A stretch of DNA of 64,000 nucleotides from the NCBI GenBank assembly GCA_020252645.1, contig JADCCN010000002.1, forward strand, positions 558,001 through 622,000, written 5' to 3'. The DNA is from Methylobacterium sp. GTDB lineage: Bacteria > Pseudomonadota > Alphaproteobacteria > Rhizobiales > Beijerinckiaceae. Shown here in pieces: positions 1,622 through 53,497 of the stretch. Within the stretch, counting starts at the first letter, position 1; each line of letters starts with the position of its first letter. The notes beneath the pieces were generated by a model. It worked only from the letters and a program-made list of their open reading frames with translations, searched no databases and was not told where the DNA came from. A program made the position numbers and the translations under genes.

Positions 1622-1721
1622 AAACTTCCTGTCCTTGCGAGAAGCGGGAGCGACGAAGCAATCCAGCCTTCGCCGGAAGATGGATTGCCGCGTCGGGCTC
1701 TCGCCCTCCTCGCAATGACAC
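1622..1721. repeat. Palindromic intergenic repeat between rpsP and rimM
   Basis: Two arms of about 30-40 bases face each other. The left arm contains TGCGAGAAGCGGGAGCGACG then AAGCAATCCAG; the right arm, read on the minus strand, contains TCATTGCGAGGAGGGCGAG and ends in a GGCAATCCATC-like block. This is the common TCATTGCGAGG...GCAATCC intergenic palindrome seen in many proteobacteria. In the mRNA it would fold into a long hairpin between the rpsP stop and the rimM ribosome binding site, possibly protecting or attenuating. There is no coding signal in it. Confidence 0.8.
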
Positions 1722-1736
1722 TCGATTGGTCCGCCC

Positions 1737-2084
1737 TTACGCGGCTTCGCCGGCCTTCTCGGCCTTCTTGGCGGCGCGTTCCTTGGCCTTGTCGCCCGGC
1801 ACGGCCTTTTCCGGGTTGTTGCGCGGGGCGCGCTTCACGAGGCCGGCGGCATCGAGGAAGCGGAGCACGCGATCGGTCGGCTGGGCGCCCTTGGCGATCC
1901 ATTCCTTGGCCTTCTCGAGATCGAGCACCACGCGGCTCTCCGAATCCTTGGCGAGCATCGGGTTATAGGTGCCGATCTTCTCGATGAAGCGGCCATCGCG
2001 GGGGCTGCGGGCATCAGCCACCACGATGCGATAGACCGGGCGCTTCTTCGAGCCACCACGGGCGAGACGGATTTTGAGAGACAT
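1737..2084 (-). CDS. rpsP: 30S ribosomal protein S16
   Basis: The 115-residue product begins [20 protein letters not shown] and contains [10 protein letters not shown], both diagnostic of S16, which binds 16S rRNA in the 30S body. The core domain fills roughly the first 80 residues; the rest is an Ala/Lys-rich tail, common in alphaproteobacteria. It begins nine bases after the stop of a small uncharacterised gene and is followed by a palindromic repeat and rimM. Confidence 0.97.
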
Positions 2085-2093
2085 GCGGTTTTC

Positions 2094-2366
2094 TCACTCC
2101 TGGTTCAGTTGAATGTGACGTTGAATTTCAGCTTCGAGCCGTTCCTCAGGGTTCTCGACCAAGCTGTCGGAACTGAAGATCTCGAAATCAATTGAGCCAT
2201 CGATACAGACATCGATTTCCCAATATTGTCCGGGGACGGCCGCAAGGATGCTGACCGCATCGTAGCGATATCCCAGAATTTCATGTGTAATCTGGGCTTC
2301 TTTGAGCTTCTTACTGATGGCCCAAATCCGATCCATCATTTGCTCGGCAGAATAGGTTTCACTCAC
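2094..2366 (-). CDS. Uncharacterised 90-residue protein between ffh and rpsP
   Basis: A small acidic protein with no signal peptide or membrane span. The N-terminal third (SAEQMMDRIWAISKKLKEA) looks helical and the middle (QYWEIDVCIDGSIDFEIFS) looks like alternating beta strands, suggesting a compact alpha/beta fold. I do not recognise a family. It starts with GTG, and that GTG overlaps the ffh TGA stop (GTGA), so it is probably translationally coupled to ffh. Base composition is clearly AT-richer than its neighbours, and it interrupts the usual ribosomal gene order, which hints at acquisition. Expression as a real gene is likely from the coupling; function is unknown. Confidence 0.7.
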   Translation of the reverse strand: MSETYSAEQMMDRIWAISKKLKEAQITHEILGYRYDAVSILAAVPGQYWEIDVCIDGSIDFEIFSSDSLVENPEERLEAEIQRHIQLNQE

Positions 2367-3922
2367 TTCTTCCTCCCGAACGGATTGAACCCGCCGAGGC
2401 CGGGCAGGCCGCCGCCACCGCCGAGACCTGGCAGGCCGGGTTTGCCGAGGCCGGGGAGGCCCGGAAGCTTGCCACCACCAGAGCCCTGCATCTGTTCGAG
2501 TTTCTTCTGCGCCTCGGCGATCGCATCGGGCGAGAGGCCGGCCGGCGGCTGCATCTTCGAAAGGTCGGGCACGCCACCACCAAGCCCGAACATGTTCGCG
2601 AGGCCGGCCATCGGCCCGCGCCCGCCCTTGCCGACCTGCTTCATCATGTCGGCCATGCCGCGATGCATTTTCAGGAGCTTGTTGATCTCTTCGGCCGATG
2701 TGCCGGAACCCGCCGCGATGCGCTTCTTGCGGGAGTTTTTCAAGAGATCCGGGTTCTTGCGCTCATCCGGCGTCATCGAGTTGATGATGGCGACCTGACG
2801 GGCGATCATCCTGTCGTTCACGCCGGCATGGGCCATCTGGTCCTTCACCTTGCCCACGCCCGGCAGCATGCCCATCAGCCCGCCGAGCCCGCCGAGCTTT
2901 TCCATCTGCCTCAACTGGTCGCGCAGGTCGGAAAGGTCGAACTTGCCTTTCCGCATGCGCTCGGCCATCGCGAGCGCCTTTTCCTGATCGATATTCTGCG
3001 CCGCCTTCTCGACGAGGCTGACAATGTCGCCCATGCCGAGGATGCGGTTGGCGATGCGCGCGGGGTGGAAATCCTCCAGCGCGTCCATCTTTTCGCCGAC
3101 GCCGATCAGCTTGATCGGCTTGCCGGTGACAGCGCGCATGGAGAGAGCCGCACCGCCGCGGCCATCGCCATCGACGCGCGTCAGCACGATACCGGTGAGG
3201 CCGACGCGGGAATCAAAGGCGCGCGCGGTGTTCACGGCGTCCTGGCCGGTGAGGCTGTCGGCCACCAGCAGCACTTCATGCGGCCCGATCGCGGCCTTGA
3301 CCTGCACCACCTCGTCCATCAGCTCGTCATCGAGCGTCACGCGGCCGGCGGTGTCGTAGATCACGGCATCGAAGCCGCCGAGGCGGGCCGCCGCTTCCGC
3401 CCGCTTCGCGATCTGCACCGCGTTCTCGCCCGCCATGATGGGCAGCACGTCGAGGCCGTTATCGCGGCCGAGCACCGCGAGCTGTTCCATCGCGGCAGGG
3501 CGGCGCGTATCGAGCGAGGCAAGCAGGACGCGCTTCTTCTCGCGCTCCTTCAGGCGCTTGGCGATCTTCGCGGTCGTGGTTGTCTTGCCCGAGCCCTGAA
3601 GCCCGACCATCAGGATACCCACCGGCGGCACGGCCTGAAGGTCGATCGGTTCGGCATCCGAACCGAGCATGGCGACGAGTTCGTCATTGACGATCTTCAC
3701 CACCATCTGGCCGGGCGTCACCGACTTGATGACATCCACGCCCACCGCGCGGGCCCGCACCTTCTCGGTGAAATCGCGCACGACATCGAGCGCGACATCG
3801 GCTTCCAGCAGCGCGCGGCGCACTTCGCGCATCGCTTCGCCCACATCCGCCTCGCTCAGCGCGCCACGGCGCGTGAGCTTGTCGAGAATGCCGGAGAGAC
3901 GACCCGAAAGGCCTTCGAACAT
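2363..3922 (-). CDS. ffh: Signal recognition particle protein Ffh (SRP54)
   Basis: Ffh binds signal sequences of nascent membrane proteins and, with 4.5S RNA, docks with FtsY. The 519-residue protein shows the N domain (1-90), GTPase G1 GLQGSGKT at 107-114, later DTAGR and TRVDGDGRGG, and a methionine-rich M domain from about residue 330. The C-terminus ends in an unusual Gly/Pro/Leu-rich run of GLPGLG-type repeats, which is longer than strictly needed for the M domain. The start MFEGLSGRL at 3922 follows a GAGGAA ribosome binding site; longer in-frame starts would translate the leader. Confidence 0.96.
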   Translation of the reverse strand: MFEGLSGRLSGILDKLTRRGALSEADVGEAMREVRRALLEADVALDVVRDFTEKVRARAVGVDVIKSVTPGQMVVKIVNDELVAMLGSDAEPIDLQAVPPVGILMVGLQGSGKTTTTAKIAKRLKEREKKRVLLASLDTRRPAAMEQLAVLGRDNGLDVLPIMAGENAVQIAKRAEAAARLGGFDAVIYDTAGRVTLDDELMDEVVQVKAAIGPHEVLLVADSLTGQDAVNTARAFDSRVGLTGIVLTRVDGDGRGGAALSMRAVTGKPIKLIGVGEKMDALEDFHPARIANRILGMGDIVSLVEKAAQNIDQEKALAMAERMRKGKFDLSDLRDQLRQMEKLGGLGGLMGMLPGVGKVKDQMAHAGVNDRMIARQVAIINSMTPDERKNPDLLKNSRKKRIAAGSGTSAEEINKLLKMHRGMADMMKQVGKGGRGPMAGLANMFGLGGGVPDLSKMQPPAGLSPDAIAEAQKKLEQMQGSGGGKLPGLPGLGKPGLPGLGGGGGLPGLGGFNPFGRKK

Positions 3923-3940
3923 TGTTTTTCCTCTTTTGCC

Positions 3941-4122
3941 CCGAAATCGGTGATTTCGGCGCAGTTCCCTTAAAACGGGCCTTGCGGCCCTGTTCGGCGT
4001 CGCGGTCGCTCCTCGCCAACAGCCTTGCAGGCCGTTGGAAGGCAAACCGCCAAACACTTTTCGCGCCCGGCGCAACAGGGACGGGCTTGCCCGCTCCCGT
4101 CACGCCAAACGGTTTTTGCGCC
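3941..4122 (-). other. Structured leader of ffh
   Basis: The stretch 3923-4208 between the predicted ffh promoter and start has no convincing gene. As minus-strand RNA it can form two hairpins: a nested one at 4069-4122 (GGCGCAA pairing with TTGCGCC, and inside it GACGGG with CCCGTC), and an 8-bp stem with a three-base loop at 3941-3959, about 20 bases from the ATG. I looked for the conserved SRP RNA tetraloop/asymmetric-loop sequence here and did not find it. A regulatory leader is an inference; the pairings are visible. Confidence 0.45.
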
Positions 4123-4208
4123 CGGGGGCGCCTCGCGCTGCCGGACGTGAACCTCCGGGGCCTCGCCCCGGTCAGCCGATCCAGAGATCACGCTGATTGA
4201 ATGACCGT

Positions 4209-4237
4209 CTCATAGGGGAAAGGCGAAAAGCGGTCAA
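4209..4237 (-). promoter_or_regulatory. Predicted sigma-70-type promoter for the ffh-rpsP-trmD operon
   Basis: On the minus strand TTGACC (4237-4232) is separated by 17 bases from TATGAG (4214-4209). Transcription would start near 4202 and read a leader of about 280 bases before ffh. It is the best-scoring hexamer pair by eye in this gap, and spacing is ideal. No experiment supports it. Confidence 0.6.
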
Positions 4238-4258
4238 GTTTTGCCGCCATAGCGGGAA

Positions 4259-4882
4259 TTATTTCAGAAACACCACGATGTTGAGCTTCAGCCCAGGATC
4301 ATCGCTTTTCTCGGGCCAGAAGAGATATTCCTCCAGGTAAGTGCCGGTGGAGGTGAGGCCCTTTTCATCGAGGAAGGCGGTGATTGCCTCATAGGCCGCG
4401 TCGATATCGTCGTAAGGCCCTTCATGCGTGAAGATGATCGCCCGGCCCGCAGGGGATTGCGCGAGTTCGAAGCCCGCGCGGGCCTGGGTGCCCGGTGCCG
4501 CCGGCGCTGCCAGCGGCAGCATCGCCTCGAAGGTGAAGCCGAGATCGTCGCTTGTTACGAAATGCACCATGGGTGGCGTGCCGGTGATCAGGCCGAGCCG
4601 ACGCGCTTCCTCGCCCAGAAGCAGCATCGACTTCCTGATCTCGGCAAAACCGTCATCCCAGGTGCTGGCGGCGCGGAGGCGCAAGACAGGCCGGGCAGCA
4701 TGTTCCACGAGCTGGCCGGTCGAGGCATCGGCCGAGGGTTTCTCCATGCCCGGCGATGGCGGCGCAGGCGAAACCCCCGGGGGTGAAGGGACAGGCGTGG
4801 CCTGCGCGACAGCCGCCGCGACGCCGAACAAGAGCGCGATCACGGTCAGTTCAAGCCTGCTCCACAGCGATCCGCAATGCAT
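4259..4882 (-). CDS. Exported GyrI/SOUL-like effector-binding domain protein
   Basis: A 207-residue protein with an N-terminal hydrophobic segment (TVIALLFGVAAAVAQA) ending in a signal-peptidase-like site, then a Pro/Ser-rich linker to about residue 60. The rest resembles the bacterial effector-binding (GyrI-like) fold: a repeated beta-alpha-beta layout with HEGPYDDIDAAYEAI and the closing EEYLFWPE...LNIVVFLK typical of this domain. Such domains bind small hydrophobic ligands; here it would act in the periplasm. No DNA-binding domain is present. It reads in the same direction as the phytase-like gene upstream (37 bases away) and may share its transcript. Confidence 0.75.
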   Translation of the reverse strand: MHCGSLWSRLELTVIALLFGVAAAVAQATPVPSPPGVSPAPPSPGMEKPSADASTGQLVEHAARPVLRLRAASTWDDGFAEIRKSMLLLGEEARRLGLITGTPPMVHFVTSDDLGFTFEAMLPLAAPAAPGTQARAGFELAQSPAGRAIIFTHEGPYDDIDAAYEAITAFLDEKGLTSTGTYLEEYLFWPEKSDDPGLKLNIVVFLK

Positions 4883-8629: not shown

Positions 8630-9696
8630 CCGCCCCTCCCGAAGAGAGAAAACCCGGTTTCTTCTCGCGCCTGCTCGGCAGCGGGAAGCCGCCCGGGCCG
8701 CAGACGGAATCAGCGCCCGCCCCGGCAGGGGAGCCTGCCGCTGCGCCTGAAACTGTCGAGCCGCCCGCGCCGAATCTCTCGTGGTGGAAGCGGCTGAGCC
8801 AAGGCCTCTCGCGCACGGCCTCGTCGCTGGGCACGGGCATCACGGCCATTTTCACGCAGCGCAAGCTCGATGCGGATGCCCTGCAGGACCTTGAGGATAT
8901 TCTCATCCGGGCCGATCTCGGCGTGGAGGTTGCAGGCCGCATCGTCGAGACCATCGGCAAGGACCGTTTCGACAGGACGATCTCGCCCGAGGAGATCAAG
9001 GCCGCGCTCGCGGCCGAGGTCGAGAAGGTGCTCCTTCCGGCCGCAAGGCCTCTGGTGGCGGAGGCAGCGAAGAAGCCCTTCGTGCTGCTGATGGTGGGCG
9101 TGAATGGCTCGGGCAAGACCACGACCATCGGCAAGCTCGCGGCGAAATTCCGCGCCGAGGGCAAATCCGTGCTCATTGCGGCGGGAGATACCTTCCGCGC
9201 CGCGGCCATCGACCAGCTCCGGATCTGGGCCGAGCGCACCGGCGCGGGCTTCGTTTCGCGCGAGCCGGGTGCCGATGCCTCCGGCCTCGCCTATGACGCG
9301 ATCGAGCAGGCGCGCGCCGAAGGGCGCGACGTGCTGCTGATCGACACCGCCGGACGCCTCCAGAACAAGCAGGGGCTGATGGATGAGCTTGCGAAGATCG
9401 TGCGCGTTATCAGGAAGCTCGACCCCGAGGCCCCGCACGCGACGCTTCTCGTGCTCGATGCCACCGTGGGCCAGAACGCGGTCAGCCAGGTCGAGATCTT
9501 CAGGCAGGTCGCCGGCGTCACCGGGCTCGTGATGACCAAGCTCGACGGCACGGCGCGCGGCGGCATTCTCGTGGCGCTTGCGGCGAAATTCGGCCTGCCG
9601 GTGCATTTCATCGGCGTCGGCGAGGGTGTCGAGGACCTCGAGCCCTTCGCCGCGAAGGATTTCGCCCGCGCCATCGCGGGGCTGGAGGAAGCCTAG
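8626..9696 (+). CDS. ftsY: Signal recognition particle receptor FtsY
   Basis: FtsY is the membrane-associated SRP receptor GTPase. The start overlaps the mtaB stop (ATGA), giving 356 residues. The first 50 residues are a Pro/Ala/Glu-rich membrane-targeting tail, then the N domain from about 55 and G1 GVNGSGKT at 158-165, with DTAGRLQNK and TKLDGTARGG after it. Ffh, its partner, is also in this window at 2.4-3.9 kb. The TAG stop is part of the first base triplet of a repeat element that follows immediately. Confidence 0.95.
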   Translation: MTAPPEERKPGFFSRLLGSGKPPGPQTESAPAPAGEPAAAPETVEPPAPNLSWWKRLSQGLSRTASSLGTGITAIFTQRKLDADALQDLEDILIRADLGVEVAGRIVETIGKDRFDRTISPEEIKAALAAEVEKVLLPAARPLVAEAAKKPFVLLMVGVNGSGKTTTIGKLAAKFRAEGKSVLIAAGDTFRAAAIDQLRIWAERTGAGFVSREPGADASGLAYDAIEQARAEGRDVLLIDTAGRLQNKQGLMDELAKIVRVIRKLDPEAPHATLLVLDATVGQNAVSQVEIFRQVAGVTGLVMTKLDGTARGGILVALAAKFGLPVHFIGVGEGVEDLEPFAAKDFARAIAGLEEA

Positions 9697-45525: not shown

Positions 45526-46356
45526 ATGCCGCGTAAACGAGGTGGAGGCGGGCATGCCGGCGGCGGTCACGGCTGGTTCGTGACCTTCGCAGACCTGATG
45601 GCTTTGATGATGAGCTTCTTCGTGATGCTCGTTGCCTTTTCCACGCCCAACCAGAAGAAGATGCAGGTGGTCGCGGGCTCCATGCGCGAGGCGTTCGGCA
45701 TCCAGGCGCATTCCCGCCAGAATGCCGTGATCGAGGCCGATGGCGTGCCGACCCGTTCGGCGCTGAAGAATGTCACCAAGACCACCCCGGATTATGCCTC
45801 CGACCAGACGACCCCGCTGACGCATATCCAGCGCGACACGATGGGCAGCGGCACCTTCTATTCCGATCGCGGCTTCACCACCGCCGCCGCCTCGCTGCGC
45901 CAGGCCTTGCAGGAACTGCCGGAACTGACCGAAGTGTCGCGCAACGTCATCGTCGAGGAGACGAAAGAGGGCCTCCACATCCAGATCACCGATCAGGAAG
46001 GGCGCTCGATGTTCGCGGAAGGGTCGGCCTGGCCCTATGAGCGAATGCGCAAGACCATTGCCGGCATCGCCCCCACCCTGCGCCGCATGCCGAACCGCCT
46101 GCGCGTCACCGGCCATACCAGCTCCGGCCGGGGCGAGGGCCGCGATCGCAGCGAGTTCTGGCGCCTCTCCAGCGAGCGTGCGCTGGGCGTGCGCGACCTG
46201 CTCTCGAATAACGGAATCCCCGATGAGCGCTTCGAATCGGTCATCGGCAAGGCCGATACCGAGCCGCTTTTCCCGGACGATCCCTATATCGCGCCGAACC
46301 GTCGCATTTCGATTCTCGTCGTGCGCGAGGAACCGCCGCTGCCTCCGGCCCGCTGA
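45526..46356 (+). CDS. motB: MotB/OmpA-domain stator subunit
   Basis: A 276-residue protein: short cytoplasmic Gly/His-rich N-terminus, one span with the proton-carrying Asp D23 in WFVTFADLMALMMSFFVML, a plug region, and a C-terminal OmpA-like peptidoglycan-binding domain (NRLRVTGHTSS...SSERALGVRDLL...IGKADTEPLFP..NRRISILV). It pairs with MotA to form the ion-driven stator. Its stop directly abuts the mscS stop on the other strand. Confidence 0.88.
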   Translation: MPRKRGGGGHAGGGHGWFVTFADLMALMMSFFVMLVAFSTPNQKKMQVVAGSMREAFGIQAHSRQNAVIEADGVPTRSALKNVTKTTPDYASDQTTPLTHIQRDTMGSGTFYSDRGFTTAAASLRQALQELPELTEVSRNVIVEETKEGLHIQITDQEGRSMFAEGSAWPYERMRKTIAGIAPTLRRMPNRLRVTGHTSSGRGEGRDRSEFWRLSSERALGVRDLLSNNGIPDERFESVIGKADTEPLFPDDPYIAPNRRISILVVREEPPLPPAR

Positions 46357-48804
46357 TCAGCCATCGCGCTCGTCATCCTGGCGAGGCAGGCCGCGCGGAG
46401 CGACCATCGGCGGGAGGCTGGTGATTTCCAGCTTGCGGGTGGGTGCCGAGAGCAGCACGCCGGCCTGCTGCAGGCGGCGATAGATGTCGAAAAGCAGGTC
46501 CGACCGGGTCGTGGCCATCGAATCGACATCGGTGAAGCAGCGCAACTCGAAATCGAGCCCGTTCTCGCCGAGATTCTTGAAGATCACCATCGGCTTCGGC
46601 TCGCTCATCACCTCGAGATGCGCGAGCGCCGCATCCATCAGGAGCTTCTGCACCTGCGCCGGGTCGGCACTATAGTCGACGCCCACCGGAATGACGATCC
46701 GGGCCGTGCGGTCGGAATGCACCCAGTTCTTCACGCGGCCCGAGATGAACTCCGAATTGGGGATGATGACGCTCGCGCGGTCGAAGGTGAGAATCTCGGT
46801 CGAGCGCACGTCGATGCGCTTCACCGTCCCCTGTTCGTCACCCACCACGATCCAGTCGCCCACCCGGATCGGCCGCTCCCAGAGCAGGATGAGGCCGGAA
46901 ATGAAATTCTCCACGATGGATTTCAGCCCGAAACCGATACCCACCGAGAGGGCACCTGCCACGATGGTGATCTTGTCGATGGAAAGCCCGAGCTGGGACA
47001 GCGCAACCATCGCCGCGATGACGATGCCGACATAGCCAAGGATGGTGCGGATGGAATTCTGCAGGCCGGGGTCCAGCGTCGTGCGCGGCAGGTAATGGGT
47101 GTCGAGCCAGTTCTGCACCGCGCGCGTCGCGCCATAGCCGAGGGTGAACAGCAGGATCGCGACCGCGATGGTTGAAAGCGAGATCGTGACGCCTCCGACC
47201 TGGAAACCGAAGAAGGCGGCGCGGATATTGTAGAGGAAGGATTGCGAATCCACGCCCCACGGGGCCAGCAGCAGCATGCCGAAGGCGACGAACAGCACGA
47301 GGCGCAGCAGGCCTGAAGCCAGCACGCTCGCCTGATCAAGCGAGGAGGCCGCCATGCCCGTCGCCTCGCGCACGCGACGGCCAAGGAAGCCATTGGCCGA
47401 AAGGCCGGTGCTGATGATCTCCTCGATGATCACGAGCAGCAGCATGGCCGCCAGCACGAGCGTGATGATCCAGGTGAGCTGCGTCACGAGGAAGGTCGCG
47501 AGCGGCACGAAGCCGAGCAACGCCGCGCCGAGAACGATCAACGCCACGGCCCAGCCGAAAATGCGCAGGGGCAGCATGGGCTGGTTCTGCTCGACCGGGC
47601 GTTCGCGCTGGACCTGCGCATCGGGGCGCTGCCCGAAAGCCCGGCGCAGACCGCTCATCATCGTGAGGCTGACCAGGATGGCGAAGACGCCGCGCATCGC
47701 AACGGTGAGCGGGAAGGAGGCAACAATCGCCGCCAGGATGGCATCCACCACACGGCCGATGACCACGATGATCGCGATGTTGACGATGCTGCCGGCGAAA
47801 GCGCTGGCCCGCTCGTCCGAGAGCTCCACCATCCGCCAGTCGGGCCGCCCCGGTGCCAGCACCGCTCGGGTAAGCCCGCGCAGGAAGGTGATGAAGATCA
47901 GCCCGTAGATCATGGCATCGGCCACCTGGGCGGTCCGCCCGGGCAGAAGCTCGAACCGATCGAGCAGCAGGTCGAGCAGCAGCAGAAGGCCGCCGTGCAC
48001 GATGGTGGCCAGAGCCACGCGCCGCAATGCGCGGAGGATCTTCTGGATCGGCAGGCGCGCGCCGCCATCAATCACCACGACCCGCAGGAAGGAACCGGTT
48101 TCCACCCAGCCTCTCGCGCGCGGCAGAAAGAAGACCATCCCGCCCGCCATCATCGCGAGCACGAAGGCCTCATACCATTCGAGATTGGCAAGGATGGCCG
48201 AGGCCCATTGCTGGCCAAGGAAATGCAGCGCCGCGGCATCGGCCGGGAGGGCTCTGGCGACATCCAGCCACAGCCAGGGGCTGGCCACCGCCGAATGCTG
48301 GGCAAGGATCTCGCGGGTGAAATTCTGTCGGCGGCGATCCGCGATGGTCTGCGCGGTATGCTCGATGCGAAGCGCGAGCGCGCGGGCGCTGCGGAGCGTT
48401 TCGTCCGCCTCCTTCCAAAGTCGGCTCTGCTCGGCCCGGTCGAGGGCCACTTCCGGGCTTTCGGTCTGGCCCTTGGCGGCATCGGGCGCCGGGCCGAGAT
48501 GCTGGAGCCGCGCCTTGATTTCATCGGCGGCCGGTTGCTCCTTCGCAATCACGCCTTCGAGGCTGTGCGCCAGCGGCACGAGCCTCTGCCGGAGATCGGC
48601 GAGGCGACGGTCGTCCAGCGCATCCCGCTGGAAGGCCGCCTCCACCTGCTGGAGTTCCAGGCGCGTGGTTTCAAGCACGCTGCGCGAGCTGACGGGAGCC
48701 GGATTCTGCGCCAGCCCGATGCCGGAAAGGCAAAGCCCGAGAAGCCCCGCAGCGAGCCAGGCCCGCAAGAAAGACTTGATCCGCAGCATCGTGTTCGTCT
48801 CCAT
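46357..48804 (-). CDS. Large MscS-family mechanosensitive channel (DUF3772)
   Basis: About 815 residues: signal peptide (AWLAAGLLGLCLSGIGLAQ), a helical periplasmic DUF3772-like region with coiled segments to about 200, some ten membrane spans, then the MscS pore helix with GALSVGIGFGLKSIVENFISG and the cytoplasmic beta domain WERPIRVGDWIVVGDEQGTVKRIDVRST. It should release osmolytes on hypo-osmotic shock. Start near 48804 (ATG; 48789 alternative). A gap of 163 bases separates it from the peptide gene. Confidence 0.9.
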   Translation of the reverse strand: METNTMLRIKSFLRAWLAAGLLGLCLSGIGLAQNPAPVSSRSVLETTRLELQQVEAAFQRDALDDRRLADLRQRLVPLAHSLEGVIAKEQPAADEIKARLQHLGPAPDAAKGQTESPEVALDRAEQSRLWKEADETLRSARALALRIEHTAQTIADRRRQNFTREILAQHSAVASPWLWLDVARALPADAAALHFLGQQWASAILANLEWYEAFVLAMMAGGMVFFLPRARGWVETGSFLRVVVIDGGARLPIQKILRALRRVALATIVHGGLLLLLDLLLDRFELLPGRTAQVADAMIYGLIFITFLRGLTRAVLAPGRPDWRMVELSDERASAFAGSIVNIAIIVVIGRVVDAILAAIVASFPLTVAMRGVFAILVSLTMMSGLRRAFGQRPDAQVQRERPVEQNQPMLPLRIFGWAVALIVLGAALLGFVPLATFLVTQLTWIITLVLAAMLLLVIIEEIISTGLSANGFLGRRVREATGMAASSLDQASVLASGLLRLVLFVAFGMLLLAPWGVDSQSFLYNIRAAFFGFQVGGVTISLSTIAVAILLFTLGYGATRAVQNWLDTHYLPRTTLDPGLQNSIRTILGYVGIVIAAMVALSQLGLSIDKITIVAGALSVGIGFGLKSIVENFISGLILLWERPIRVGDWIVVGDEQGTVKRIDVRSTEILTFDRASVIIPNSEFISGRVKNWVHSDRTARIVIPVGVDYSADPAQVQKLLMDAALAHLEVMSEPKPMVIFKNLGENGLDFELRCFTDVDSMATTRSDLLFDIYRRLQQAGVLLSAPTRKLEITSLPPMVAPRGLPRQDDERDG

Positions 48805-48967
48805 CCGCATCCTGATCCGCCCCGGCAAAACCGCTCGAATCAGGCGTGAGGATGGCAGAATGCTGCCCGGCTGTCCGCCAGGGACAACGGGTCAGCCTGC
48901 AGCTTCCGAGGAGAAACGGCGCTGGAACGCAAAAAGGCGCGCCCCCTACAGGCCGACATGCGGAATC

Positions 48968-49246
48968 TCAGGGTTGAGGACCCGATAAGCCGATGTCACC
49001 GCCGGACATGCCGTTGTCGCCGCCGGATATGCCGACGCCGTCGCCGTAGCTGATACCCTCACAGCCACATCCACAGGTTGCTCCGGTGCCGCAGCCGCAG
49101 CCAGATGTACCGCAGCTTGCGCTGCTGCAGCCGCAGCCGCACTCCGCCGCGTTCATCGCCGCGACCGCTTCCGTCATGCGACCCATGACCGCCTGAACGG
49201 CAGCGTCCTCGATCCGGATCGAAACCCGGGTTACCGCAAATGTCAT
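48968..49246 (-). CDS. Cysteine- and glycine-rich small peptide (possible modified or exported peptide precursor)
   Basis: A 92-residue protein in three parts. Residues 1-35 are a helical, Cys-free region (MTFAVTRVSIRIEDAAVQAV...NAAE) that would suit a leader. Residues 36-62 hold nine cysteines at 36, 38, 40, 45, 50, 52, 58, 60 and 62, spaced mainly as CGC with Ser/Thr/Gly between. Residues 66-90 are a repeat of the unit SGGDxG plus a hydrophobic residue. GGGG and AAGGG precede the ATG and a promoter fits at 49282-49309, so it is likely a real gene. I do not recognise the family. A RiPP-type precursor or a metal-binding peptide are both possible; no YcaO, radical-SAM or MNIO enzyme is adjacent. 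Confidence 0.7.
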   Translation of the reverse strand: MTFAVTRVSIRIEDAAVQAVMGRMTEAVAAMNAAECGCGCSSASCGTSGCGCGTGATCGCGCEGISYGDGVGISGGDNGMSGGDIGLSGPQP

Positions 49247-49281
49247 CGCCCTTACCCCTGTTTTGTTGCAATAAAACCACG

Positions 49282-49309
49282 ATGATGTTTAAAATGGTTA
49301 ACAGGTCAA
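49282..49309 (-). promoter_or_regulatory. Predicted promoter of the Cys-rich peptide gene
   Basis: Minus-strand TTGACC (49309-49304), 16-base spacer, CATCAT (49287-49282), 36 bases from the ATG. A perfect TTGACA on the plus strand at 49334-49339 may be the -35 of the divergent operon, though its -10 is poor. The whole 49247-49447 gap is strikingly AT-rich for this genome. Confidence 0.45.
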
Positions 49310-49394
49310 GAGAAAAAGTTAAAATTTCATGTCTTGACAGGAAAATCGGATTCATGAGAATTTTCAGGATAAGTTTCTGGGGTGGCGCTCGCAG

Positions 49395-49419
49395 CAATCC
49401 TGTCTTGAAGACAGGATTG
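49395..49419. promoter_or_regulatory. Perfect 25-bp palindrome before the GRDP-like gene
   Basis: CAATCCTGTCTT and AAGACAGGATTG are exact complements around a single central G. It ends 28 bases before the ATG at 49448. Such a symmetrical site with almost no loop fits a dimeric repressor operator better than an RNA hairpin, but both are possible. Confidence 0.55.
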
Positions 49420-49447
49420 AAGCGCTGGTTTTCGGAGAATTTATCCG

Positions 49448-50077
49448 ATGAGTGGTGTTTCAGAACAGTCAAACGACTCTCTTTTGTTTGAGAGGTTCTT
49501 TTCGCCGAACCTCTACACGTATTTCCGCGTCAAGCGGCCCGAGATCGACGCCAACGAGATGCGCATCCGGCTCACCGAACTTTTGAAGTTCCTGATCCTC
49601 TCCCATGAGTTTCCGGGAAATATTCTTTTCGGCGAGGAGCTGGATGATCTTTGGCATCTCTGGATTATGCAGACGCGCGAATATGAAAAACTGTGCTGCT
49701 CCTTGCCGAGCGGACGGTTTATTCATCATGATTCCAGGGATCAGCCCTCCGATAACCTGTCCTGGGCGGAGGTGGAGAACCTTGTCGCCCGCATGATTGC
49801 CGACAAGAAGGCGAAGGGCGTGGCGCTGGCGGGCGCCGATCTCAGCCCGCAAAGGCTGCAGGAGAATGCGGAGAGGCTCCTTTCATTCTTTGCGAGCTAC
49901 ATCGAGAACTTCGGCGAAATTCGACCCGAAGTTGTTTCTTGCTGGCCGCCACTTCCACGTCTCATGCTAAGGATGGGCTGGAGCACGGATGACCTGAACG
50001 CGTTCCTGACCCGGCATTCCGTGGCCGGTTCACCCCCGCCTGGCCGCCCGCCCGTTCGGCACGCTGTCCCGGCCTGA
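49448..50077 (+). CDS. GRDP-like (glycine-rich domain-containing protein-like) protein with WH...HH motif
   Basis: A 209-residue soluble protein. LDDLWHLWIMQTREYEKLC (about 66-83) followed by FIHHD (91-95) matches the pattern DxxWHxxIxxTxxY...FxHH of bacterial proteins related to plant GRDP (DUF1399); W69, H70, H93 and H94 are the conserved, possibly metal-binding residues. The C-terminal half is helical with a Pro/Arg-rich end. Biochemical activity of the family is not known to me. It is 10 bases upstream of the permease gene, in one operon, and divergent from the Cys-rich peptide gene. Its composition is AT-richer at the 5' end. Confidence 0.7.
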   Translation: MSGVSEQSNDSLLFERFFSPNLYTYFRVKRPEIDANEMRIRLTELLKFLILSHEFPGNILFGEELDDLWHLWIMQTREYEKLCCSLPSGRFIHHDSRDQPSDNLSWAEVENLVARMIADKKAKGVALAGADLSPQRLQENAERLLSFFASYIENFGEIRPEVVSCWPPLPRLMLRMGWSTDDLNAFLTRHSVAGSPPPGRPPVRHAVPA

Positions 50078-50087
50078 GGGCGCCGCC

Positions 50088-50846
50088 ATGGCGTGGACCG
50101 AACATCTGGGCCGCTTGGCTCCCGCGAGCGGACTCGCCCCGCTGGAAGCCGAGTTGCTGCGCGCGGTGCTGCTCGTTCTGGCAGCGGGCATCCTCGCCGC
50201 CTCCGGCGCGCTCTTCGTCATTCTGCTTTATGGCTGGCTCATTCCATCCAGTTCCGTGCTGCAACTGGCCCTTGCGGCAGGCGCAGCGCTGTTGCTGATC
50301 GCTCTTCAGTTTCTTGCGCGCGCCCGGGCGGGCTCCATGGCCGACCGGGCGAGCCAGAAGCTTTTCGCCCGCCTCGATCAGGAGGGGGAGGCTGCGCGCC
50401 TGGCAAGCCAGCCGCTCATCCGCGCCTTGCGCGGCCGAAGCTTCCTTCTTGCGGCCGATTGCGGCTGGGTGCCGATCTTCCTCGTCGCCGTGCTGGTGCT
50501 GCACCCGCTCCTTGGTGCCACCACGGCCTTGGCGATGCTCCTCCTTGGCCGTTTTGGCGCAGCACCGGAGCCGCCTTTGTCGAAACCCGATGCCCCCTTC
50601 CGCGCGGGCGAACGCAGGCGGCGGCTTGCGGTTTCGAGCCTGCGCGATACCCTGCAGATCCTCCTTCTGTCGCTGGGCGGCGCGCTGGCCATGGGAGGCA
50701 CGCTGCAGATCGGGGAGATTGTGGCCGCGACCCTGCTCAGCCTGCGTGCGCTGGGCGCCCTCGGCGCTGCCCTGGAAGATGCCCCGGCGCTGAAAGCGGC
50801 CTATCGCAGCTGGCAAGGCCTGCGAACCCGCGAGGGTATCGGCTGA
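50088..50846 (+). CDS. Type I secretion-like ABC membrane domain without ATPase domain
   Basis: A 252-residue membrane protein whose order of features follows the membrane half of PrtD-type exporters: two N-terminal spans (27-49, 58-76), a cytoplasmic connector, the paired spans FLLAADCGWVPIFLVAVLVL with HPLLGATTAL (the family's LFDLPWxPxYL...HPxLG block), then LRDTLQILLLSLGGALAMGG and GEIVAATLLSLRALGAL. The protein ends exactly where the ATP-binding domain should begin; there is no Walker A anywhere. It may be a half-transporter using another ATPase, a chaperone-like membrane protein, or a truncated gene. Its stop lies one base from ugpC's stop. Confidence 0.65.
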   Translation: MAWTEHLGRLAPASGLAPLEAELLRAVLLVLAAGILAASGALFVILLYGWLIPSSSVLQLALAAGAALLLIALQFLARARAGSMADRASQKLFARLDQEGEAARLASQPLIRALRGRSFLLAADCGWVPIFLVAVLVLHPLLGATTALAMLLLGRFGAAPEPPLSKPDAPFRAGERRRRLAVSSLRDTLQILLLSLGGALAMGGTLQIGEIVAATLLSLRALGALGAALEDAPALKAAYRSWQGLRTREGIG

Positions 50847-50847
50847 A

Positions 50848-51894
50848 TCAACCAATTCGCTCGCCCGTTTCGGGGTTGAAGAAGTGCAATTGCGCAGCGG
50901 TCGCGGTGGCTCGCAAATGCTGGCCCGGCGCATGGGCCGCCCGGCCCGGCACGCGCACGATGAGCTCCGGTCCATCCCCGTTCAGCGTTCCGTAAAGATA
51001 GGTTTCCGCGCCCACCGCCTCGACCGCGCTCACCACGATGTCGATCGCCAGCCCGTTTGGGTCTGTGCCGTCCTCGTGGAGATGTTCCGGTCGCACACCC
51101 AGCACCACCGGCCCGGCCGGCCTTTGCCGCAGGGTGAGCCCGGGGATTCCGCCATCCGGCACGGTGATGAGGTTCATCGGCGGGGCCCCGATGAAACCTG
51201 CGACAAAGATGGTCTGCGGCTTCTCGTAGAGTTCCAGCGGTGCGCCCACCTGCTCCACCTGCCCCTTGTTCATCACCACGAGCTGGTCCGCGAGCGTCAT
51301 CGCCTCAAGCTGGTCATGGGTGACATAGATGGAAGTGGTCTTGAGCGCGCGCTGGAGCTTCTTGATCTCGACCCGCATCTGGATGCGCAGCTTCGCATCG
51401 AGGTTCGAGAGCGGTTCGTCGAACAGGAAGACCTTCGGCTTGCGCACGATGGCGCGGCCCATGGCCACACGCTGGCGCTGGCCGCCCGAGAGCGCCTTGG
51501 GCTTGCGCTGAAGGAAGGGCTCCACCTCGAGAATGCGCGCGGCTTCCTTCACGCGGGCATCGATTTCATCCTTGGGCGTGCCGCGATTGCGCAAGCCATA
51601 GGCCATGTTGTCATAGACCGACATATGCGGATAGAGCGCGTAGTTCTGGAAAACCATCGCGATATCGCGCTCGGCCGGCTCGATCTCGTTCACCACACGG
51701 CCATCAATGGCGCAGGTGCCGCCGGAAATCGTCTCCAGCCCCGCAACCATGCGCAGAAGCGTGGATTTCCCGCAGCCCGAAGGCCCGACAAGCACACAGA
51801 ACTGGCCATCGGCGATCTTGAGGCTCACGCCCTTCACCGCCTCCACCCCGCCTGCATAGACCTTGCGAACGGAATCGAGCCTCACGTCACTCAT
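50848..51894 (-). CDS. ugpC: sn-Glycerol-3-phosphate ABC transporter ATPase UgpC
   Basis: A 348-residue MalK-type ATPase: Walker [11 protein letters not shown]-loop [20 protein letters not shown], signature [19 protein letters not shown], Walker [12 protein letters not shown], and a C-terminal TOBE regulatory domain ([10 protein letters not shown]). Its ATG overlaps the ugpE stop (ATGA). It powers uptake by UgpA/UgpE of substrate delivered by UgpB. Confidence 0.93.
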
Positions 51895-52739
51895 TTTTCG
51901 GTCTCCACGAGGCCCTTCACGAAGAGTTTCTGCATCACGACCACCACGATCACCGGCGGCAGCATGGCGAGGATGGCGGTGGCCATGGCAAGCTGCCATT
52001 CGGTCAGCGCATCCTGCGTCACGATCATCTTCTTGATGCCGATGACGATGGTCTGCATGTTGTCCTTGGTGGTGATGAGGAGCGGCCAGAGATATTGGTT
52101 CCAGCCATAGATGAACTGCACCACGAACATGGCCGCGACCGAGGTGATCGAGAGCGGCACGAGGGTGTCGAAGAAGAATTTCATCGGCCCCGCGCCATCG
52201 ATCTTCGAGGCCTCGACCAGTTCGTCCGGCACGGTCATGAAGAACTGGCGGAAGAGCAGCGTCGCGGTCGCCGAGGCGATGAGCGGAATGGTGAGGCCCG
52301 CGAAGGTGTCGAGCAGCTTGAGGTCCGCCACGATCTTGTAGGTGGGGAAAATGCGCACTTCCACCGGCAGCATCAGGGTGATGAAGATGATCCAGAACGC
52401 CGCCATGCGGAATGGAAAGCGGAAATAGACCACCGCGAAGGCCGAGATGAGCGAGATCGCGATTTTGCCGAGCGCGATGCACATCGCCATGATGAGGGAA
52501 TTGAGCATCATCGTGCCCACCGGCTCGCGAGTCGAGGACGAGGTGCCGATGAAGATCGTGCGGTAATAGTTCTCGAGAAAATGCGGGCCCGGCCGCAAGG
52601 GCATCTGGCCGTTCGAGATCGTCGCGGCATCCCAGGTGGAGGCCACGAAGGCCACATAGACCGGGAAAGCCACGATCGCGATGCCGAGGAGCAGCACCAG
52701 ATGCGGCACGAAATCGAGGAGGCGCCTGCGTTCAACCAT
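51891..52739 (-). CDS. ugpE: Glycerol-3-phosphate ABC transporter permease UgpE
   Basis: A 282-residue binding-protein-dependent permease with six spans and the EAA loop [21 protein letters not shown] that contacts the ATPase. The order [14 protein letters not shown]...[11 protein letters not shown] fits the UgpE group. The start overlaps the creatininase stop by one base (TGATG). Confidence 0.93.
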
Positions 52740-53497
52740 CAGCTCCGGCCCTCGGGTCCCGAAATCCAGCCGGCGAGCGCCTCGGCGCAGGCTGCAACGA
52801 GTTTCTCGCCCTTCTCGCGCGTGGCGACGCGGGCATCCCCGATCACGCCCGAGGGTGTCATCTCGGCGAAAGGCCGATAACGCGCGACCACCGGGCGCAT
52901 GAGGGCACCCGATTCCGCCTCCAGCATGCCATAAGCCCCGGAGAGGCGATCGGCGCGGACCTCATCGGGCTGCAGGGCCATCATCATCGAGGTTTCCACC
53001 TCGCAGGCATGCATCGTGCCGTCCTGCTTTTCGAGCAGCGGGGCGATGGCGGGCTTGGCGAGTTCGAAATAGGTCGCGGCGCGCAGCGAGAGCGTCGTCT
53101 CCCGCGCGAAATCGGGCAGGAAGGCCCCGAGCGCCGCGATGTTGCCGCCATGGCCATTGACGATCAGGACGCGCTTGAAACCATGCCGCTCGATGCTCTT
53201 CAGCAGGCAGATCAGCACCGCGCGATAGGTCGGGATATCGAGCGTGAAGGTGCCACCCAGGGCCATGTGATGTTCGGCCATGCCGACCCAGAGCGTCGGC
53301 GCGACGATGCACGCGCCCTCGGCCAACCGCTCGGCCGCAAGCCGGCAGACGGCCTCGCAGAGATAGGTATCGACCCCCACCGCCAGATGCGGACCGTGCT
53401 GCTCCATCGAGGCCACGGGCAGGATGACCAGCGCGCCGGCCTTGGCGAGCGCGTTGAGCTCCGGTGCCGTGCGCTCCTTCCACATCACGGATGACAT
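52739..53497 (-). CDS. Creatininase-family amidohydrolase inside the ugp operon
   Basis: A 252-residue metal-dependent hydrolase with the family ligands: E32 and H34 in SMEQHGPHL, D43 in GVDTYL, NGHGGN near 115, and HACEVETSMM near 163. Relatives hydrolyse creatinine or N-formyl groups of biosynthetic intermediates. One-base TGATG overlaps on both sides (ugpA stop, ugpE start) show it is translated with the transporter, so its substrate may be something the transporter brings in. That link is inferred. Confidence 0.88.
   Translation of the reverse strand: MSSVMWKERTAPELNALAKAGALVILPVASMEQHGPHLAVGVDTYLCEAVCRLAAERLAEGACIVAPTLWVGMAEHHMALGGTFTLDIPTYRAVLICLLKSIERHGFKRVLIVNGHGGNIAALGAFLPDFARETTLSLRAATYFELAKPAIAPLLEKQDGTMHACEVETSMMMALQPDEVRADRLSGAYGMLEAESGALMRPVVARYRPFAEMTPSGVIGDARVATREKGEKLVAACAEALAGWISGPEGRS

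Follow-up and report, generated by a model that had tools for sequence, protein, structure and literature searches.

The locus considered here raises the question of whether three neighbouring genes, for a small Cys-rich peptide, a GRDP-like protein and a membrane protein, form a single system, and what such a system would do. The genes were found in a 64,000-nucleotide stretch of Methylobacterium sp. DNA (contig JADCCN010000002.1, positions 558,001 to 622,000 of the forward strand), which is referred to in full as the window. They make up a divergent cassette, with the peptide gene on the minus strand and the genes for the GRDP-like and membrane proteins on the plus strand, arranged around a 201-bp spacer of low GC content. 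The gene structures and their layout had been proposed in a first-pass annotation made from the sequence alone, and both were confirmed by coordinates, strands, lengths and the count of nine Cys residues in the peptide. Given that the GRDP-like protein and a Cys peptide are constant partners while transport and tailoring genes vary, the cassette may be of a type related to the ribosomally synthesised and post-translationally modified peptides (RiPPs), with the GRDP-like protein maturing or escorting the Cys peptide, a reading to which we give about an even chance.

Co-occurrence of the three genes in Methylobacterium

Seventeen genomes of the genus were compared, including that of the window. 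A strong match to the GRDP-like protein was found in six, and the peptide profile and the membrane protein (E below 1e-45) were detected in exactly the same six. The first-pass annotation had held that a system should be doubted if homologues of the three genes never occurred together elsewhere, or if the peptide frame were free of codon-level selection. All three are carried together by these six congeners, and on this basis an explanation of the genes as chance neighbours was rejected. A seventh match to the peptide profile (G034, E 0.0037 in a search of 61 genomes) was discarded, as no such peptide is present in its sequence.

Gene order is identical in the five relatives of the window cassette (L011 to L015), each of which has ugpC on the far side (83-95% identity). 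An mscK-like gene is present in all 17 congeners and adjoins the cassette in all six carriers. In the 11 congeners that lack the cassette, none of the three genes was found within ~1.5 kb of the mscK-like gene, which in one case (G016) lies on a short contig. As ugpC is not near mscK in these 11 genomes, no cassette-free site could be delimited. In the most distant relative, L015, identities to the window are 51% for the GRDP-like protein, 45% for the membrane protein and 32% for the peptide, as judged by local alignments that for the peptide cover 37 aa.

All three cassette frames are conserved at the codon level. Between the window and L011 to L014, the peptide gene has a ratio of nonsynonymous to synonymous differences per site (pN/pS) of 0.22-0.39, the GRDP-like gene one of 0.19-0.37 and the membrane protein gene one of 0.22-0.48; the peptide values answer the second doubt raised above. 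For comparison, the mscK-like neighbour gives 0.20-0.22 against L011 to L013 and 0.39 against L015. Ratios for the three cassette genes against L015 are 0.55-0.68 at pS values of 0.64-0.66, which are near saturation. When all 15 pairs are compared, the peptide ratios run from 0.22 to 0.82, the highest being that of L014 and L015.

GRDP-like proteins and their peptide partners outside the genus

The core GRDP-like family was found at 12 loci in four lineages. Outside Methylobacterium, it includes two Stappiaceae (L016, Roseibium aggregatum, and L017, Labrenzia) and, as sampled, members of one Burkholderiales family (L018, Albitalea terrae; L019, Rhizobacter; L082 and L083). The window protein has the signature D-x2-WH-x-WI-x-QT-x2-Y-x3-C-...-HH-x-S, and the 12 sequences have 23 invariant columns, including D66, W69, H70, W72, Q75, T76, Y79, C83, H93, H94 and S96. 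The 12 group together in a tree of 35 domain rows with support of 100/98; W72 and Q75 are invariant in the core family and are not common to the non-core rows. An AlphaFold2 model of the window protein (mean predicted local distance difference test score, pLDDT, 74) is almost all helical. The name given to this protein in the first-pass annotation holds only in an indirect way. Neither Pfam nor NCBIfam gives a match above cut-off for the window protein, which has none to PF07173 at E<=1, but a distant profile match, L021, reaches 26.6 bits against a PF07173 cut-off of 22.7 over the WH...HH motif. By sequence, the core family thus appears loosely tied to PF07173 via L021.

Genome searches covered 1993 genomes, repeats counted, with at most 8-13 candidates scored per genome, so that misses are possible. 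Close members were found in 1/385 genomes of the window's class and 1/398 of its phylum (in both cases the window's own genome), in 4/399 of the L018 family, in 2/87 of the L016 family, and in 1/250 of the L018 order and 1/274 of the L018 class (each time the genome of L018 itself). Further matches in the class, phylum, L018-family, L016-family, L018-order and L018-class samples (7, 13, 1, 0, 4 and 5 genomes, respectively) are distant, none being better than E 1e-10. Among plasmids, no match was obtained to the GRDP-like proteins of the window, L083 or L018, and the L016 query gave two records.

A small Cys peptide gene lies in the same cluster as the GRDP-like gene at all 12 core loci, and four peptide types can be distinguished. 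The first type, that of the window, is rich in CGC. The window peptide itself has a Cys-free N-terminal part (residues 1-35), a Cys-rich middle (CGCGC...CGCGC) and a Gly/Ser-rich tail, and it matches no Pfam or NCBIfam entry. The L018 peptide reads METKTT...VAGG-LAAAVRCCACHCCSCHC, and its L019 counterpart is 73-77% identical. The L016/L017 type is a 40-aa peptide, MSITIKKAVIS...ACRDTLCDGNPNC, and that of Roseibium has three Cys residues. The L082/L083 type contains GCCKPD[AG]GTCCPNAK, and its stop codon is separated from the start of the partner gene by 12 or 9 nt. The Roseibium/Labrenzia and L082/L083 peptides were missed by Cys filters and were found by reading frames. Within types other than that of the window, pN/pS is 0.29-0.57 on 40-72 codons, the L016/L017 value of 0.29 being derived from four differences. 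BLASTP across the types with seven representatives, in a tiny database and with composition correction off, gave nothing better than E 0.001 (L015 against L018, 25% over 56 aa). The sequence similarity of the types is hence at best marginal, and a distant common origin is possible.

A peptide-like open reading frame (ORF) is present within 500 bp upstream of the GRDP-like gene at 10/12 core loci, as compared with 10/81 control ORFs, and a stricter peptide criterion gives 8/12 against 1/81. The controls were mechanically chosen long ORFs from the same 12 sequences that start >2.5 kb from the GRDP gene. The Roseibium-type peptides fail the 500-bp criterion, as they lie ~1.65 kb upstream. An earlier adjacency control was discarded; it gave 4/12 loci (that of L082 spurious) against 10/152 controls, but five of the latter were peptides of the cassettes themselves as seen from a neighbouring gene, and spurious antisense ORFs masked peptides.

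The genes around the pair differ between lineages. In L016 and L017, the order is peptide, inverted repeat, ABC transporter of the fused type, GRDP-like gene and a pair of genes for TauD-type oxygenases, the content of L017 being judged from its frames. The repeat is perfect over 11 bp and lies between the peptide and ABC genes (4360-4387 in L016, 4330-4357 in L017); such repeats are often found after precursor genes. The L018 locus encodes a peptide whose leader has a double-glycine site, HlyD and an ABC exporter with a C39 peptidase domain (Peptidase_C39, E 1.9e-34), and the same features were recognised in the frames of L019. The first-pass annotation had seen in the window the usual layout of a peptide system. 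The peptide/GRDP pair does recur, with other peptides, in Stappiaceae and Burkholderiales, and transporters accompany it in two lineages, but none was seen beside it in L082 and L083.

Many distant GRDP-like proteins bear Gly/Cys tails or the repeats AAFCSIEPSQ, ALCVPS or AMCGGM, and no Cys tails or repeats were found in L097, L098, L099, L100 or L027. Two plasmid-borne relatives have the domain joined to a Cys-rich tail, which contains CKGCSACSSCGGGGSCTVH in Agrobacterium tumefaciens, where there are two tandem copies, and CKGCNGCAAGCVS in Rhizobium gallicum. In each case an annotated glycosyltransferase gene is next, and the Agrobacterium plasmid also has a gene for an ABC transporter of the fused type. 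This Agrobacterium cluster, with its two Cys-tailed proteins, occupies 5103-9466 of L092, and its layout presumably resembles that of glycocins.

Several further arrangements were observed. In L078 (1348-2196, equal to 6731-7579 of L104), a GRDP-like domain is followed by about ten AAFCSIEPSQ repeats and looks like a multicore precursor; no obvious modification enzyme was recognised by eye among the neighbouring ORFs of L104. On the minus strand of L088, a domain with ALCVPS repeats (4219-4731) is next to ORFs at 3574-4200 and 1700-3649; a 208-aa ORF that is C39-like by eye, with no Pfam or NCBIfam match, precedes a gene whose product has PPDK_N and PEP-utiliser domains, and these genes possibly form a separate peptide-modification operon. 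GRDP-like proteins in L085 (5681-6400), L086 (1247-1630 and 1916-2296) and L087 (5742-6119) have AMCGGM repeats or a single PAMCIS, SSICW or SAICSR at the end. In L089 (2732-4216), a GRDP-like protein ending in CWMSLEAQCGSCD adjoins a protein with terminal CSSC repeats. A long, repetitive, antisense-looking frame in Albitalea (L105, 6347-9742) may lie opposite another Cys-repeat protein.

Membrane protein, spacer and borders of the cassette

The membrane protein had been described in the first-pass annotation as a type I secretion-like domain that lacks the ATPase, and this description was upheld by profile and structure comparison. The protein matches TIGR01842 with E 8.7e-9, far below that model's cut-off. 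Foldseek with its AlphaFold2 model (pLDDT 80) gave PrtD (5l22) as the top match, with E 2.4e-5 and a template modelling score of 0.68 by query length, followed by PCAT1 and HlyB. The model thus identifies a predicted membrane domain of a PrtD-type exporter without an ATPase. A nucleotide-binding domain was found in none of the six homologues, the window frame being 252 aa long and the open frames in the six genomes 277-345 aa. That the gene is a decayed exporter was rejected, since five congeners retain the frame, with identities of 43-88% and pN/pS of 0.12-0.71 over the 15 pairs. The ATPase-less gene was seen only in the genus of the window. Nine other congeners have weak matches in open frames of 594-661 aa, which are presumably those of ordinary ABC exporters, and two congeners have none. 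As importer permease genes adjoin the UgpC-type ATPase gene at the right border of the cassette, this ATPase was not assigned as the partner of the membrane protein.

Table 1. Features of the cassette and its borders in window coordinates
Feature	Position	Strand	Remarks
Cys-rich precursor-like peptide	48968..49246	-	92 aa, 9 Cys
Divergent AT-rich control region	49247..49447	.	201 bp
Hairpin with 11-pair stem, just 5' of the GRDP-like gene	49395..49419	+	
GRDP-like partner protein	49448..50077	+	209 aa
Membrane protein, predicted transmembrane domain of PrtD-type ABC exporter	50088..50846	+	252 aa
MscK-like mechanosensitive channel gene, left border	46357..48828	-	outside cassette; Pfam/NCBIfam scan
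UgpC/MalK-type importer ATPase gene, right border	50848..51894	-	outside cassette; convergent

The gene for the membrane protein starts 10 nt past the GRDP-like stop. The spacer has a GC content of 0.41, as compared with 0.65 for the whole window. It had been called unlike the rest of the window, and it is indeed rare, as an equally low value occurs in 107 of 63,799 sliding 201-bp segments, the lowest of which starts at 49259; it is not unique, however, as a second stretch of 0.42 or less lies near 9689. Four promoter-like sites were observed in the spacer against 0.3 expected from shuffles, and TTGACA-16-GAGAAT is present on the plus strand at 49334-49361. A block with GGTTAAC...GTCAAGA...CTTGACA is recognisable, in altered form, in five relatives.

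The hairpin before the GRDP-like gene has the arms CAATCCTGTC...GACAGGATTG and a fold z of -3.85. Hairpins of different sequence occur at the equivalent place in L011 to L015, with z from -2.50 to -0.86, the latter being that of L015. Conservation of the hairpin is only partly supported by these values. It is possible that it serves as an attenuator or a binding site, and an Rfam scan of 46000-53000 gave no match.

Proposed function and comparison with known systems

In the proposed maturation of the Cys peptide, the 92-aa protein would be a precursor, with the first ~35 residues serving as a recognition sequence and the Cys-rich middle being what is put to use. The GRDP-like protein would bind it as a dedicated maturation partner, and its invariant D/W/H/W/Q/T/Y/C/HH/S set, which resembles an active or metal site, may act on or metallate the cysteines. 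Modification or metallation of Cys is suggested by these invariant His, Cys, Asp and Trp residues together with the fused Cys tails of the distant relatives. The ATPase-less exporter domain might help to move the peptide over the inner membrane, either with a borrowed ATPase or passively. As the first-pass annotation had stated for known modification enzymes, no recognised RiPP enzyme was found in the Pfam- and NCBIfam-scanned neighbours of the window cassette.

Several observations weigh against this proposal. The GRDP-like model has no convincing match to a PDB fold (best E 1.4), and to call the protein an enzyme is hence a guess. In an alignment of the six window-type peptides, the invariant columns fall mostly within the Cys block and not in the N-terminal part, and the putative leader and core are not cleanly separable. 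No double-glycine site precedes the Cys block of the window peptide, and the neighbouring genes that were scanned include neither a protease nor a C39 gene. No ATPase partner was found at the locus, the rest of the genome not having been searched for one. Export machinery is not a constant feature, as no exporter, nor any oxygenase, was seen among the neighbours of the L082 and L083 pairs. The adjacency criteria were chosen with the peptides already in view, their control ORFs are mechanical, and the 12 loci represent only four lineages.

The main rival reading is metal buffering, in which the Cys-Gly-Cys peptide would bind copper or zinc, either inside the cell or in the periplasm, in the manner of a metallothionein, the GRDP-like protein would be a metal chaperone or insertase, and there would be no secreted natural product. 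The CGC-rich middle is plausible as a metal ligand, the GRDP-like protein has conserved His, Cys and Asp residues, and in L082 and L083 no exporter was seen beside peptide and partner. Such a role is nevertheless hard to reconcile with the double-glycine peptides of L018 and L019 beside C39-ABC/HlyD exporter genes, with the three-Cys peptide of Roseibium beside oxygenase genes, and with the scan of genes around the window cassette, in which no metal regulator or resistance gene was found; we consider it unlikely. The C39 exporter context in two genomes, and the single adjoining partner gene of each peptide, would also suit a bacteriocin or signal whose immunity or receptor protein is the GRDP-like protein. 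However, immunity proteins usually track their peptide, whereas here one orthologous family with 23 invariant columns is paired with four peptide types, and related domains fused to Cys tails would be odd for immunity, which makes this the least probable of the alternatives.

The domain might also be a carrier or leader module and no enzyme, acting as a long leader in the fusions and, in the window, as a split-off leader that holds the peptide for an enzyme encoded elsewhere. The fusions with Cys tails and repeats favour this, and the NHLP and Nif11 precursors, as described in PMC2887384, are a precedent for enzyme-like leaders. Against it, the peptides encoded in trans have an N-terminal part of their own, which in the alignment is well kept in 5/6 window-type members, and the His and Cys of the domain are kept, whereas in the NHLPs, according to the same source, the metal ligands of the ancestral enzyme have been lost. 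A carrier or leader function appears improbable.

Beyond maturation in the window cassette itself, the bacterial GRDP-like domain could, more tentatively, be a hitherto undescribed peptide-maturation module acting on cysteines, in trans on dissimilar peptides and in cis on fused Cys tails or repeats, and it would then mark a RiPP class that is missed by enzyme-based mining. If GRDP-like proteins do mature Cys peptides, they would offer a handle on a class of ribosomal peptides without the enzymes sought by genome-mining tools, and a biochemical role would be suggested for a domain found from bacteria to plants. Phenotypes of plant GRDP genes are listed in the literature, and to our knowledge no chemistry has been assigned to them. 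For ABC transport, an exporter domain that lacks its ATPase would be an oddity open to testing. Among the matches listed for the open-licence literature, no title or abstract start concerned a bacterial GRDP-like peptide system.

The transmembrane fold of the predicted membrane protein model is like that of the type I exporters PrtD, HlyB and PCAT1, but unlike them its six homologues have no nucleotide-binding domain. PF07173 comprises what we take to be the plant GRDP/DUF1399 proteins. The core family shares with it the D-x2-WH ... HH region, but the window family falls below PF07173 detection, lacks the Gly-rich domain and differs in its invariant W72 and Q75.

The NHLP/N11P systems (TIGR03793-TIGR03798; PMC2887384) are similar in having a small precursor-like Cys peptide with mix-and-match partners, and L018 and L019 further share the double-glycine site, HlyD and C39-ABC exporter. 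In contrast, no cyclodehydratase or LanM was found among the scanned neighbours, the partner is GRDP-like, and the window cassette has only a membrane domain that lacks the ATPase. The MNIO (DUF692) RiPPs, bufferins and methanobactins among them, likewise have a Cys precursor beside a small partner protein (PMC12452194). Neither DUF692 nor DUF2063 was found among the Pfam-scanned neighbours of the window, L016/L018 and L082/L083 loci, a scan that did not take in every ORF and was not accompanied by a whole-genome DUF692 search. The wider GRDP-like proteins, many of them Cys-tailed, resemble the TIGR04222 proteins, which have C-terminal low-complexity tails rich in Cys (PMC12452194); none of ten scanned matched TIGR04222, and the terms 'GRDP' and 'glycine-rich' are absent from the main text of that paper. 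The closest known kinds to the cassette are the NHLP/N11P systems (PMC2887384) and the MNIO systems, including those with TIGR04222 tails (PMC12452194).

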